From contig CP121450.1 of assembly GCA_029689965.1 (NCBI GenBank), forward strand, positions 620,001 to 684,000: a DNA stretch of 64,000 nt. The letters run 5' to 3'. Of the stretch, positions 40,619 to 44,152 are shown piece after piece. The first letter of the stretch is position 1, and each line of letters starts with the position of its first letter. The notes below the pieces were generated by a model, which saw nothing but the letters and a program-made list of their open reading frames with translations, did no database searches and was not told where the DNA came from. Made by a program: the position numbers and the translations under genes. Source of the stretch: Curtobacterium flaccumfaciens. Lineage in GTDB: Bacteria > Actinomycetota > Actinomycetes > Actinomycetales > Microbacteriaceae.

Positions 40619-41580
40619 GTGTCCCTCGCTCCGCCCGCCTCTGCCACCGGTCGCGTCGACGACGCGGCGTCGCGGGTCGACACGGTGTACCGGCCTGGAG
40701 GCACGGTGGACGTCCCCGCGACGCTCCGGCCCCTGCAGCGCGGCTCCGGCGACCCGGCCTTCCGGGTGGTCGGCTCCGTCGTGTGGCTCGCGCTCCGGAC
40801 GCCTGCCGGGCCGGCCTCCGTGGCCGTCCGGCCAACCGGCGAGGCGATCACGGTGTCGGCGTGGGGCGCCGGCGCGGAGTGGGCGGTCGCGCACGCACCC
40901 GAGCTCCTCGGCCGCGGGGACGACTGGTCCTCGCTGGACGTCTCGGGCACCCGTTCCTCGCCGACGCCCGGCATCGACAGCCCGGACTCCGACTGGTCCG
41001 CACGAACACCGTCGCGGCGATGCTCGTGCCGGCGATCATGGAGCAGAAGGTCACCTCGCGGCAGGCGTGGCGGGCCTGGCGGTACCTGCTCCGCCGTCAC
41101 GGAGCCCCGGCGCCCGGCCCCGCGCCGGAGGGCATGTACGTGCCTCCGACCGCAGCGGGATGGGCCGCGATCCCGAGCTGGGAGTGGCACCGGGCCGGCA
41201 TCGAGCCCGGGCGCTCGGCCACCGTGATGCGGGCGATGCGCGTCGCGCCGGCGCTCGAGCGGACCCTGGCACTGGGCCGCGGTGGCTCCGTCGTGTCCGA
41301 ACGCCTGCAGTCGGTGCCGGGCATCGGGAAGTGGACGGCGGCGGAGACGGCGCAGCGCGCGCACGGCGACCCGGACTCCCCGAGTGTCGGGGACTTCCAC
41401 GTGCCGGCGCTCGTCGGGTGGGCGCTGACCGGGGGACCGGTGGACGACGACGGGATGCTCGAGCTCCTCGAGCCCTGGCGCGGGCACCGGGAGCGGGTCG
41501 TCCGGCTCATCGGCGGCTCCGGGTTCCGGAAGCCGTCGTTCGGCCCCCGCATGACGATCCAGGACCACCGCCACCACTAG
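40619..41580 (+). CDS. AlkA-like DNA-3-methyladenine glycosylase family protein (frameshifted)
   Basis: Base-excision repair glycosylase of the HhH-GPD superfamily. LVRTNTVAAMLVPAIMEQKV is the conserved helix before the helix-hairpin-helix; SERLQSVPGIGKWTAAETAQ is the hairpin, and DSPSVGDFHVPALVGWAL carries the catalytic Asp (VGDFH). The N-terminal beta domain (TVDVPATLRPLQRGSGDPAF) is AlkA-like. A missing G near 40950 separates DVSG from HPFLADARHRQ. Length is about 320 residues from GTG 40619. It probably removes alkylated purines. The stop is 6 bp from the stop of the convergent lipoprotein gene. Confidence 0.85.
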
Positions 41581-41585
41581 GACGG

Positions 41586-42122
41586 TCAGCGGTGCTCGGA
41601 CCCGTCCGGTCCACGGCGTACCAGACCCCGCCAACGCCCTGCCCGGTGACGTCGCCCGGCTTCCGGTCTGCCGCGTACGTGTAGATCGGCCGCCCGTCGA
41701 CCGTGACCTGGAGCTTCCCGTCCTCGCCGGTGATCGTGCCGATCGTGCCGGTGACACCGGACACCGAGGGAGCGGCGGCGGCGGACTCGATCGCCGGCCA
41801 GGCCGAGGCGCACCCACCCGTGCAGGTGCTCTTCCCGGACCCCTTGACGTCCTTGTCGTAGAAGTACGCGGTCATGCCCTTCCCGTCGACGATGACCGTG
41901 CCGAGCGAGGTCGACGCGGTCCCGATGCCGTCGTCGGCCCCCGGCCGCCACCGTCGCCGCCGTCGTCGGAACCGTACAGACCCCGGACGACGACGAAGAC
42001 GAAGCGGCGGCAGGTGAACTCGACGATCCCGACGACGGCGTCGACTGCGTCGCGCAGCCCGCGAGTGCCAGCGCGCCGAACGCGACTCCGGCGACCATGA
42101 GCAGTGAACGTGTGGAACGCAT
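41586..42122 (-). CDS. COG4315/SCO0930-like lipoprotein (frameshifts)
   Basis: The signal peptide MRSTRSLLMVAGVAFGALAL ends in the lipobox LALAGC, and a Ser-rich linker follows. The C-terminal domain has two related repeats: LGTVIVDGKGMTAYFYDKD with STCTGGCASAWPAI, and VDGRPIYTYAAD with GQGVGGVWYAVD. This is the secreted repeat of COG4315 found in predicted surface electron-transfer or copper-linked lipoproteins; the conserved Cys pair and Trp are present. Breaks near 41945 and 41621 are homopolymer errors; the corrected end is AVDPDGSEHR. Divergent from the YceI-sigma-anti-sigma operon across the paired palindromes, so likely co-regulated. Function not established. Confidence 0.8.
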   Translation of the reverse strand: MRSTRSLLMVAGVAFGALALAGCATQSTPSSGSSSSPAAASSSSSSGVCTVPTTAATVAAGGRRRHRDRVDLARHGHRRREGHDRVLLRQGRQGVREEHLHGWVRLGLAGDRVRRRRSLGVRCHRHDRHDHRRGREAPGHGRRAADLHVRGRPEAGRRHRAGRWRGLVRRGPDGSEHR

Positions 42123-42201
42123 GGGTGACCCCTGTCCTGCGGACCCGGGCCGGGCCTCCCGGCTGCAACGGATCCGCTCATGAGGTGACACGGCGCGACG
42201 G

Positions 42202-42241
42202 GCCGGATCGTTCGATCCCGACCCGGATCGAACGATCCGGC
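42202..42241. promoter_or_regulatory. Paired palindromic operator between lipoprotein and YceI genes
   Basis: Two 14-bp palindromes, GGATCGTTCGATCC (42205-42218) and GGATCGAACGATCC (42225-42238), lie with centres 20 bp apart, about two helical turns. Together they also form one 17-bp-arm inverted repeat (42202-42218 and 42225-42241). The position in the divergent spacer suggests cooperative binding of two repressor dimers. Which protein binds is unknown. Confidence 0.65.
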
Positions 42242-42262
42242 GACCTGCCTCGTTGACCGGGT

Positions 42263-42946
42263 GTGAAGAGACGAACGAAGGTCCTGCTCGGCATCGCCGC
42301 CGGTGTGGTCGTCGTCGGCGCCGCGGGCGTCGTCGGCGGCCCGATCGTCTACGCGAACTTCGTGAACGACGCCGCGGACGCAGCGCCCTCGCTCGCGCCG
42401 ACCGGAGGCGCCACCCTGAGCGCGACCGAGGTGGACGGCACGTGGGCCTCGACCTCCAGCGGTTTCGCGGGGTACCGGGTGCACGAGGTCCTCCGGGGCC
42501 AGGATGTGACCGTGACCGGACGTACGAAGGACGTCGATGCCCGAGCAACCGTGGCGGGCGGATCCCTCACGGCGGCAACGGTGACGGTGCAGGTCGCGTC
42601 GATCAGCACGCCCGAGTCCGCTCGTGACGACTACTTCCGCGGGACCGCGATGCAGACGGACCGCTTCCCGACGGCGACGTTCCGGGTGACCGCGCCCGTC
42701 GACGTCCGTGCGGCGCTCGCCGGGACGGACCCCGACGTCGCCCTGCGCGGTGAGCTCACCCTGCACGGCGTCACGAAGGCCGTGACGGCGGACGCGCAGC
42801 TCGGTGTCGACCGGGACGGACACGTGCAGGTCGCCGGTTCGGTCCCGATCACGTTCGCGGACTACGGCGTGCAGGCCCCGGACCTCGGCTTCGTGCGGGT
42901 CGACGAGCACGGTGCGGTCGAGTTCTCGGTCGAGCTGGCGCGGTGA
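42263..42946 (+). CDS. YceI-family protein, membrane-anchored
   Basis: A 227-residue protein from GTG 42263. The N-terminus RRTKVLLGIAAGVVVVGAAG is a membrane anchor or signal. The rest is the YceI beta-barrel (lipocalin-like): GYRVHEVLRGQDVTVTGRTK, ATVTVQVASISTPESARDDY, FRGTAMQTDRFPTATFRVTA and GELTLHGVTKAVTADAQLGV. YceI proteins bind polyisoprenoids or quinones in the barrel. It overlaps the sigma factor gene by four bases, so it is made together with the regulatory pair. An outer-surface lipid or quinone-binding role is likely. Confidence 0.88.
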   Translation: MKRRTKVLLGIAAGVVVVGAAGVVGGPIVYANFVNDAADAAPSLAPTGGATLSATEVDGTWASTSSGFAGYRVHEVLRGQDVTVTGRTKDVDARATVAGGSLTAATVTVQVASISTPESARDDYFRGTAMQTDRFPTATFRVTAPVDVRAALAGTDPDVALRGELTLHGVTKAVTADAQLGVDRDGHVQVAGSVPITFADYGVQAPDLGFVRVDEHGAVEFSVELAR

Positions 42947-43458
42947 CCGTGGACGCCCGGCCCGCCGACGAGCTCCTGACGGCGCTGTACGCCGAGCACG
43001 GGGACGCGCTCGGTCGGTACGTGCTGCACCTCACGACGGACCGGGCGCTCGCCGAGGACGTCGTCCAGGAGACCCTCGTGCGTGCCTGGCAGCGGCCCGC
43101 GGTGCTCGAGCGCGACGCCGATGCGGCCCGTGCCTGGCTGTTCACGGTCGCGCGGAACCTCGTCGTCGACGATGCGCGTTCCGCCCGGCGCCGCCGCGAG
43201 GTCGGCTCCGACCTGCCCGTCGATGAGGTCCAGCCCGACCGCACGGACGCCGTCCTCGACGGGATCGTCGTCGCGGACGCGCTCGCCGGCCTCTCGCCGG
43301 AACACCGACGGGTCGTGGTAGACGCGTACTGGCTCGGCCACACCGTGCCCGAGATCGCCCGACGCCACGGGATCCCGGAGGGCACCGCGAAGTCGCGGCT
43401 GCACTACGGTCTCCGCGCGCTCCGGCTCGCACTGCAGGAACGAGGGGTGACCCGATGA
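42943..43458 (+). CDS. ECF RNA polymerase sigma factor
   Basis: A 171-residue sigma-70 family protein. Region 2 is YAEHGDALGRYVLHLTTDRA then LAEDVVQETLVRAWQRP (region 2.2/2.3) and ARAWLFTVARNLVVDDARSA (2.4). Region 4 is LAGLSPEHRRVVVDAYWLGH followed by TVPEIARRHGIPEGTAKSRL, the HTH that reads the -35 element. It is an ECF factor of the SigK/SigL-like group. It overlaps YceI upstream and its anti-sigma factor downstream, and probably drives this operon. Target promoters elsewhere are unknown. Confidence 0.92.
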   Translation: MTVDARPADELLTALYAEHGDALGRYVLHLTTDRALAEDVVQETLVRAWQRPAVLERDADAARAWLFTVARNLVVDDARSARRRREVGSDLPVDEVQPDRTDAVLDGIVVADALAGLSPEHRRVVVDAYWLGHTVPEIARRHGIPEGTAKSRLHYGLRALRLALQERGVTR

Positions 43459-44152
43459 CCGACGACCGCTACCGGGACTGGGACGCCGCGTACGTGCTCG
43501 GCTCGCTGCCGACCGACGAGCGGCTCGAGTACGAACGGCACCTGGAGACGTGCGCCGCGTGCCGCGCCGCCGTCGCGGAGCTGGCCGGGATGCCGGGGCT
43601 CCTGGGGCGGCTGCCGGCCGAGGACGCGGTCGCGATCGCAGAACCGGACGGGAGGCCGATCCGGCCCCGCAGCACTCGCTCGCCGTGGTCGCGCACCGCG
43701 TCCGCACCCGTCGGCGCCGTCGCCGGGTGCTGGTCGCGTCCACAGCGGGGCTGGCCGTCGTCGCGGCGGTGCTCGGCGGGGTCGCGTTCGGTACCGGCGG
43801 CGTCCCCGCTCCGTCGTCGTCGCCGTCGTCGGTGCGGGCCGGGGAACGCTACGCGATGACGTCGGGCTCCGGGCTCACGGTCGACCTCGACGTGACGGGC
43901 CGGGCGTGGGGGACCCGGTTCGACTGGGGCTGCGAGTACGGCGGTCGCGACTGGGGAACGGACAACGCGGTCCGGTACGACCTCGTGGTGGTGCGGAAGG
44001 ACGGCACCGACGAGACCGTGGCGTCGTGGAGCGCCTCGGGTCGACGGGCCGCCGGCCTGGCGGCGGCGACGGACGTGCCGCTCGCGTCGATCGCATCGGT
44101 GGAGGTGCGGCTGCACGGGCAGGGGCGGGCGCTGGCGACCGTCGCGCTGTAA
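43455..44152 (+). CDS. Zinc-finger anti-sigma factor (frameshifted)
   Basis: The N-terminal domain WDAAYVLGSLPTDERLEYER then HLETCAACRAAVAELAGMPG contains the HxxxCxxC zinc-binding motif of anti-sigma factors (zf-HC2/ZAS). One membrane helix follows (RVLVASTAGLAVVAAVLGGV) and an outside domain (GTRFDWGCEYGGRDWGTDNA) of RskA type. A base error near 43660 changes frame between the cytoplasmic domain and the helix. It should hold the ECF factor at the membrane until an envelope signal triggers release, often by proteolysis. ATG overlaps the sigma gene stop. It ends 3 bp from the convergent amidohydrolase stop. Confidence 0.85.

Follow-up and report, generated by a model that had tools for sequence, protein, structure and literature searches.

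Putative back-to-back promoters of a SigL-like ECF sigma factor within an inverted repeat of the Curtobacterium flaccumfaciens genome

The window, by which we mean the whole 64,000-nucleotide stretch of Curtobacterium flaccumfaciens DNA that was analysed, carries an inverted repeat between a lipoprotein gene on the minus strand and an operon on the plus strand that encodes a YceI-domain protein, an ECF sigma factor and an anti-sigma factor. The features are arranged as follows:

41507 to 42122, minus strand: SCO0930-type lipoprotein with Lipoprotein_15 repeats, COG4315-like (Pfam PF03640, E 9.5e-29)
42202 to 42241, no strand: 17-bp perfect inverted repeat, holding two opposite-facing -35 boxes with their flanks
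42263 to 42946, plus strand: YceI-domain protein, first gene of the operon (Pfam PF04264, E 2.5e-23)
42943 to 43458, plus strand: ECF sigma factor, SigL-like (NCBIfam NF007227, 217.5 bits, cut-off 202)
43455 to 44152, plus strand: anti-sigma factor with an HxxxCxxC zinc finger, zf-HC2 (Pfam PF13490, E 1.8e-6, first frame)

A reading made from the letters of the window (hereafter the sequence-only reading) had already named the lipoprotein gene and the YceI-ECF-anti-sigma operon, and the Pfam and NCBIfam matches confirmed these identities. We take NF007227 to be the model of the SigL subfamily. The ECF protein shows sigma regions 2 and 4 by Pfam, and its best match in the PDB is Mycobacterium tuberculosis SigL (6dv9, E 7.4e-49, residues 10-171). 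The lipoprotein was also matched by NCBIfam NF040526 (E 1.8e-30), with a score of 106.2 bits that is under the cut-off of 275 for that model. By eye, we observed a hydrophobic N-terminus in the YceI-domain protein and a hydrophobic stretch in the second frame of the anti-sigma gene. In the assembly of the window the lipoprotein gene and the anti-sigma gene are each broken across two reading frames. The former is a single open frame in 7/7 sister loci and the latter in 51 of the 53 loci examined. The other two are the window itself and L008, a locus running into a contig end for which no second piece of the gene turned up. The estimated completeness of the window's genome is 65.5%, compared with 99-100% for most same-genus genomes, which suggests that it contains many sequence errors; with a completeness this low, split genes here may often be such errors.

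When we examined the repeat, we found that positions 42205-42218 match GGATCGTTCGATCC and positions 42225-42238 its reverse complement, both without mismatch and with centres 20 bp apart. The two 14-bp palindromes that the sequence-only reading described are thus both present and mutually inverted, although each of them consists of two 6-bp arms flanking a non-complementary TT or AA and is not a perfect palindrome when taken alone. The arms of the longer inverted repeat lie at 42202-42218 and 42225-42241, with a 6-nt loop between them. The pair of 14-mers sits between the lipoprotein start (42122, minus strand) and the YceI start (42263, plus strand), as had been said, though not exactly between them: it is off-centre, with 82 bp to the lipoprotein start and 24 bp to that of YceI. 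A search of the 3.84-Mb genome for further copies, as had been proposed, found the exact pattern GGATCGWWCGATCC at only the two described sites and its reversed-pattern control nowhere, an occurrence that exceeds chance. Allowing one mismatch added two places in the genome. Within the window, the pattern with up to two mismatches gave 3 matches where 1.39 were expected, so that loose copies carry no meaning.

As RNA, the region 42202-42241 has a strong predicted fold (-36.3 kcal/mol, z -5.45 against shuffles), which would be consistent with an RNA hairpin or a transcription terminator formed by the 17-bp inverted repeat. However, there is no T run after the repeat, and the eight sister loci of the lipoprotein clade retain both exact 14-mers in just four cases (one 14-mer in three loci, none in one). 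Moreover, the repeat is located upstream of both predicted divergent starts and would therefore not be transcribed from them. We rejected the hairpin or terminator on its position and on the missing T run, and consider it extremely improbable.

The two 14-mers each contain a box with a GAAC core that faces outward, and each core is followed by a CGT at the same distance. The putative promoter elements are:

42186 to 42192, minus strand: -10 box CGTGTCA of the lipoprotein-side promoter, its CGT 17 nt from GAAC
42205 to 42213, minus strand: -35 box GAACGATCC of the divergent lipoprotein-side promoter, within the first 14-mer
42230 to 42238, plus strand: -35 box GAACGATCC of the YceI-side promoter, within the second 14-mer (GAAC-N17-CGT in 53/53 same-genus loci)
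42251 to 42256, plus strand: -10 box CGTTGA of the YceI-side promoter (CGT in 53/53 same-genus loci)

On the plus strand, GAAC begins at 42230, CGT comes 17 nt later at 42251, and the GTG of YceI follows 9 nt after it, at 42263. On the minus strand, GAAC runs from 42213 to 42210 and, after 17 nt, CGTGTCA runs from 42192 to 42186, which leaves about 60 nt to the ATG of the lipoprotein gene at 42122. The -35 boxes stand back to back, 14 bp apart, and the arrangement of GAAC and CGT on the two strands is, as judged from the DNA sequence, the layout of two divergent ECF promoters. The -35 consensus of SigL is TGAACC. The exact pattern GAACGATC-N13-CGT occurs in the window's genome solely at the two described sites. 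With one mismatch, the promoter pattern was found at 156 places in this genome (83 + 73), compared with 4 + 3 for the reversed control; a large regulon was not drawn from these matches, since the reversed pattern was judged a poor control for a motif so rich in GATCG. As the distance from GAAC to the start codon is 33 bp, the YceI mRNA would be leaderless or nearly so, with a start that probably lies at or very near the start codon. The 5′ leader predicted for the lipoprotein mRNA (42123-42183, minus strand) contains GCCGGG-AGG-CCCGGC in 8/8 sister loci, sitting within a predicted outer stem of varying sequence (alifold -32.7).

The ECF protein was searched for in 66 same-genus genomes at E 1e-20 or better; 53 encode it and 13 do not. 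In all 53 loci, YceI is directly upstream and the anti-sigma gene directly downstream of the ECF gene, and the divergent lipoprotein gene is present in eight. GAAC-N17-CGT was found within 130 bp upstream of YceI in 53/53 loci, and GAAC-N16-CGT and GAAC-N18-CGT in 0/53 each over the same 130 bp, while GAAC-N20-CGT, found in 31 loci, was interpreted as the second CGT of CGTCGT -10 boxes. The core is TGAAC in 48 loci and CGAAC in five, the window among them. Counted from the G of GAAC, an ATG or GTG is located at exactly 33 bp in 47 loci and an ATG at 34 bp in four, with neither in the remaining two. For the lipoprotein side, GAACGATC-N13-CGT on the minus strand was present in 7 of the 8 loci that possess the divergent gene and in none of the other 45, one of which carries a bare minus-strand GAAC-N17-CGT. 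In G051, a genome of the lipoprotein clade, the minus side has no GAAC and shows GAAAGATC instead.

The symmetry is far less widespread than these boxes. The half-site TGAACNATC is kept without its mirror half in 45 of the 53 loci. When we aligned the 45 loci that have no lipoprotein gene, TGAAC and the ATC at +5 to +7 were invariant and +4 was a G in 40, with varying bases to the left of TGAAC; among the six possible arm pairs, 37 of these loci have at most two, seven have three and one has four. Since all 53 loci share the half-site with its N17-CGT and most lack the mirror half, it is the promoter that has been conserved, with the palindrome as one of its local variants. The outcome against which the sequence-only reading had set itself, relatives that keep the genes and lose the sites, is therefore found for the palindrome (45/53) but not for the -35 half-site, which all 53 loci retain. 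By these comparisons, the palindrome look is restricted to one sublineage within the genus and elaborates, in a lineage-specific manner, on an already known type of promoter. It arises because the GGATC upstream of each GAAC mirrors the GATCC downstream of it, and because the two -35 boxes face apart.

Beyond the genus, loci were collected in searches of family (249 genomes), order (396) and class (394), all of which are samples of larger groups. The family and order loci, together with those of a named genome collection, make up 230 distinct wider loci, collapsed from 235 by identity of the last 120 upstream bases. TGAAC-N17-CGT was found on the gene strand within 1 kb upstream in 198 of them, and the reversed motif in none. 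When the other spacings from N10 to N25 were counted, the highest were N13 (21 loci) and N20 (20), with 5 for N16 and 0 for both N15 and N18. The class-level set consists of the loci returned plus 40 picked for genus diversity, excluding most g205 and many g190 rows as well as L406, a repeat; here the motif was found in 52 of 61 loci, or 49 of 58 after dropping three loci that were already in the first set and gave no pair (L425, L434 and L450). For one class-level locus, L438, the upstream sequence is shorter than 150 bp. TGAAC-N17-CGT was thus absent within 1 kb upstream in 32/230 wider loci and 9/61 class-level loci. In the family subset, it was upstream on the gene strand in 27/27 loci, with 0 for the reversed motif, for N15 and for N19, and a divergent pair was present in 15 of the 27. 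Twelve of these SigL-like family loci also have Lipoprotein_15/SCO0930-type homologues, seven divergent and five on the same strand.

The back-to-back arrangement is recurrent, as a divergent pair occurs in 83 of the 230 wider loci. Gaps of 2-127 bp separate the paired -35 boxes, in a search that extended to 150 bp, and there is thus no fixed spacing. The 83 gaps hint at clusters near 8-14, 23-26, 33-38 and 44-46 bp, which were not replicated in the eight further pairs described below. The idea of helical phasing arose after the gaps had been seen, and the plan for its replication was fixed in advance. For a periodicity of 10.5 bp, the 62 genus-collapsed gaps gave R(10.5) = 0.23 (p 0.046-0.058), the 53 gaps up to 60 bp R = 0.29 (p ~0.013-0.015) and the 27 gaps of 16 to 60 bp R = 0.45 (p 0.003-0.004). 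The replication had eight new pairs, from eight genus labels outside the discovery labels (four discovery genera are known only by name, and overlap is possible), and gave V = 0.12 with a V-test p of 0.32, a sample too small to exclude a weak effect. Helical phasing of the divergent -35 boxes is consequently not claimed here (replication p = 0.32, n = 8).

These comparisons bear on what the sequence-only reading had predicted, namely that two dimers of a separate transcription factor occupy the palindromes as operators, cooperatively and on one face of the DNA, and that both gene sets are controlled in this way. The 14-mers are nearly perfect palindromes with a 20-bp spacing, and in 8/8 loci of the lipoprotein clade the GGAT to the left of the plus-strand GAAC is kept while parts of the -35/-10 spacer vary, as would suit such operators. 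However, 45 of the 53 same-genus loci retain the operon without the mirror half, and the spacing of paired boxes varies among relatives, so that cooperative binding at a fixed geometry is not supported. Perfect copies of the 14-mer elsewhere do not favour operators either. The 66 genomes contain 18 of them, 11 at the YceI-ECF locus, and the seven off-locus copies have no common promoter setting: GAAC-N16-18-CGT was found beside none of them, and only three, in G024, G025 and G058, have context in common. In these three genomes (L214, L215 and L217, at 1501), the same 14-mer stands elsewhere in the genome within a conserved shared context. We rejected the dimeric operator, which we hold to be very unlikely, because the mirror half is not conserved and because the other copies in the genus lack a common promoter setting, save for the three that share context. 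As a separate observation, G010 carries GGATCGAACGATCC twice, head to tail and 15 bp apart (L220, 1198-1226), near the 3′ end of what by eye is an apparent amidohydrolase gene; this tandem is probably a chance duplication.

In our opinion, the two sites are very probably the -35 elements of back-to-back promoters for the SigL-like ECF sigma factor that is encoded 0.7 kb downstream. The claim that they control both divergent gene sets would accordingly be borne out by the conservation of the promoters, and the regulatory element, as far as genome comparison can tell, is real, conserved and was spotted correctly, having been misread as dimer operators. The invariant GGAT of the eight sister loci is not required by a plain promoter. 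It could be that in this sublineage the -35 boxes were extended into symmetric sites, where a second dimeric regulator, or a pair of sigma-polymerases that exclude or assist one another across the 14 bp, tunes both promoters; we regard this as unlikely. If true, it would make the promoter pair a switch and not two independent promoters.

Which sigma factor reads these back-to-back promoters can be approached through genomes that lack the ECF gene. GAAC-containing -35 boxes are common to many ECF groups, and the window's genome has 30 first-look sigma-like candidate frames, of which one reaches E 1e-20 or better, so another ECF sigma of the cell could be the main one to recognise the pair. Among the 13 same-genus genomes without the ECF, 12 have a YceI homologue (49-55% identity), and within 250 bp upstream of these homologues we found GAAC-N17-CGT in 0/12. 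The promoter is thus absent where the ECF is absent, and most of the loci, drawn from many genera, have it ahead of this ECF gene; recognition mainly by another ECF is, against this, distinctly unlikely. The boxes, their spacing, their conservation and their co-occurrence with the ECF gene can be read directly from the genomes. The pattern alone is not diagnostic, since GAACGATC-N13-CGT occurs somewhere in 59 of the 66 same-genus genomes, eight of the 13 ECF-less ones among them. Upstream of the ECF-independent YceI homologues (L253-L264) we observed, by eye, a CGTGTCA[AC]CGT box in 10 of 12, with the longer form TGACGTGTCACCGT in eight of those ten. This box differs from the ECF promoter. In its CGTGTCAC core it is similar to the -10 of the window's lipoprotein gene, and it may be the site of another sigma factor or regulator.

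The lipoprotein gene can be followed in a similar way. Five same-genus genomes have their best lipoprotein homologue (66-69% identity) at another place, and the 420 bp that precede its matched part contained no GAACGATC promoter; a single match to a looser pattern in these five regions falls within the coding part. The lipoprotein is consequently not a fixed member of the regulon, and we dropped the idea that the lipoprotein gene of these five genomes is regulated in trans.

The solved relative of the sigma factor offers a comparison for the -10 boxes. According to PMC6372665, the -10 element of M. tuberculosis SigL is T-G-N-C/A-A-G, with C-G preferred just before it, His54 and Asp60 determine the preference at '-12' and '-11', and the SigL holoenzyme transcribes sigL's own promoter. 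Set against the consensus given there, the lipoprotein-side -10 (CGTGTCAC) fits at every specified position except the last, and the YceI-side -10 (CGTTGACC) has a T rather than the key G at '-11'. In an alignment read by eye, His54 and Asp60 both align with arginines in the window's ECF, and the SigL -10 rule is for that reason not simply transferable. These two residues are a trait of the M. tuberculosis protein and are not known to define the SigL group. It is plausible that the window's ECF has a different or relaxed -10 preference.

From the arrangement described above we infer recognition by this particular ECF, as well as the start sites, the signal and the co-induction of the two gene sets. 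An envelope signal would free the sigma factor from its membrane anti-sigma factor, and the sigma-polymerase would read GAACGATCC-N12-CGT in both directions: rightward to give a probably leaderless mRNA for YceI, sigma and anti-sigma, and leftward to give the lipoprotein mRNA. Rightward transcription would amount to positive autoregulation with a built-in anti-sigma feedback, and both gene sets would be induced together once the sigma factor is released. With a distance of only 14 bp between the -35 boxes, one polymerase may hinder the other.

A hypothetical operator is hereby replaced with a promoter model that can be tested. TGAAC-N17-CGT, which within the genus is mostly TGAACGATCC, is a likely -35/-10 signature of SigL-like ECFs in many actinobacterial genera, and the model would connect a sigma factor of the envelope type with YceI proteins and with SCO0930-type lipoproteins. 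In the open-access library searched, we found nothing joining Curtobacterium with an ECF sigma factor, nothing joining ECF sigma, YceI, Actinobacteria and promoter, and nothing joining SigL with the promoter consensus. No new mechanism emerges, the control being most likely of an ordinary bacterial kind.

As in the SCO0930 family and the Lipoprotein_15 (COG4315-type) proteins, whose models both match it, the divergent gene of the window encodes a lipoprotein, though with an NCBIfam score that stays under the cut-off. Autoregulation is common among sigma factors, according to PMC4821874, and as in autoregulated ECF operons generally, the sigma and anti-sigma genes of the window are adjacent and lie behind an ECF-type promoter; the window differs in that its -35 boxes are back to back, 14 bp apart, within a perfect inverted repeat. 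PMC2877774 describes the SigL-RslA complex, in which RslA is a zinc-binding anti-sigma factor with a redox-sensitive zinc site. The window resembles this M. tuberculosis system, which contains the best solved relative of its sigma factor, in having an anti-sigma gene with a zinc-finger motif next to the sigma gene. In contrast to that system, a YceI gene precedes the sigma gene and a divergent lipoprotein gene is present (in 8 of the 53 same-genus loci), and compared with P-sigL of M. tuberculosis, the -35 is extended (GAACGATCC) and the plus-strand -10 is without the G at '-11'.
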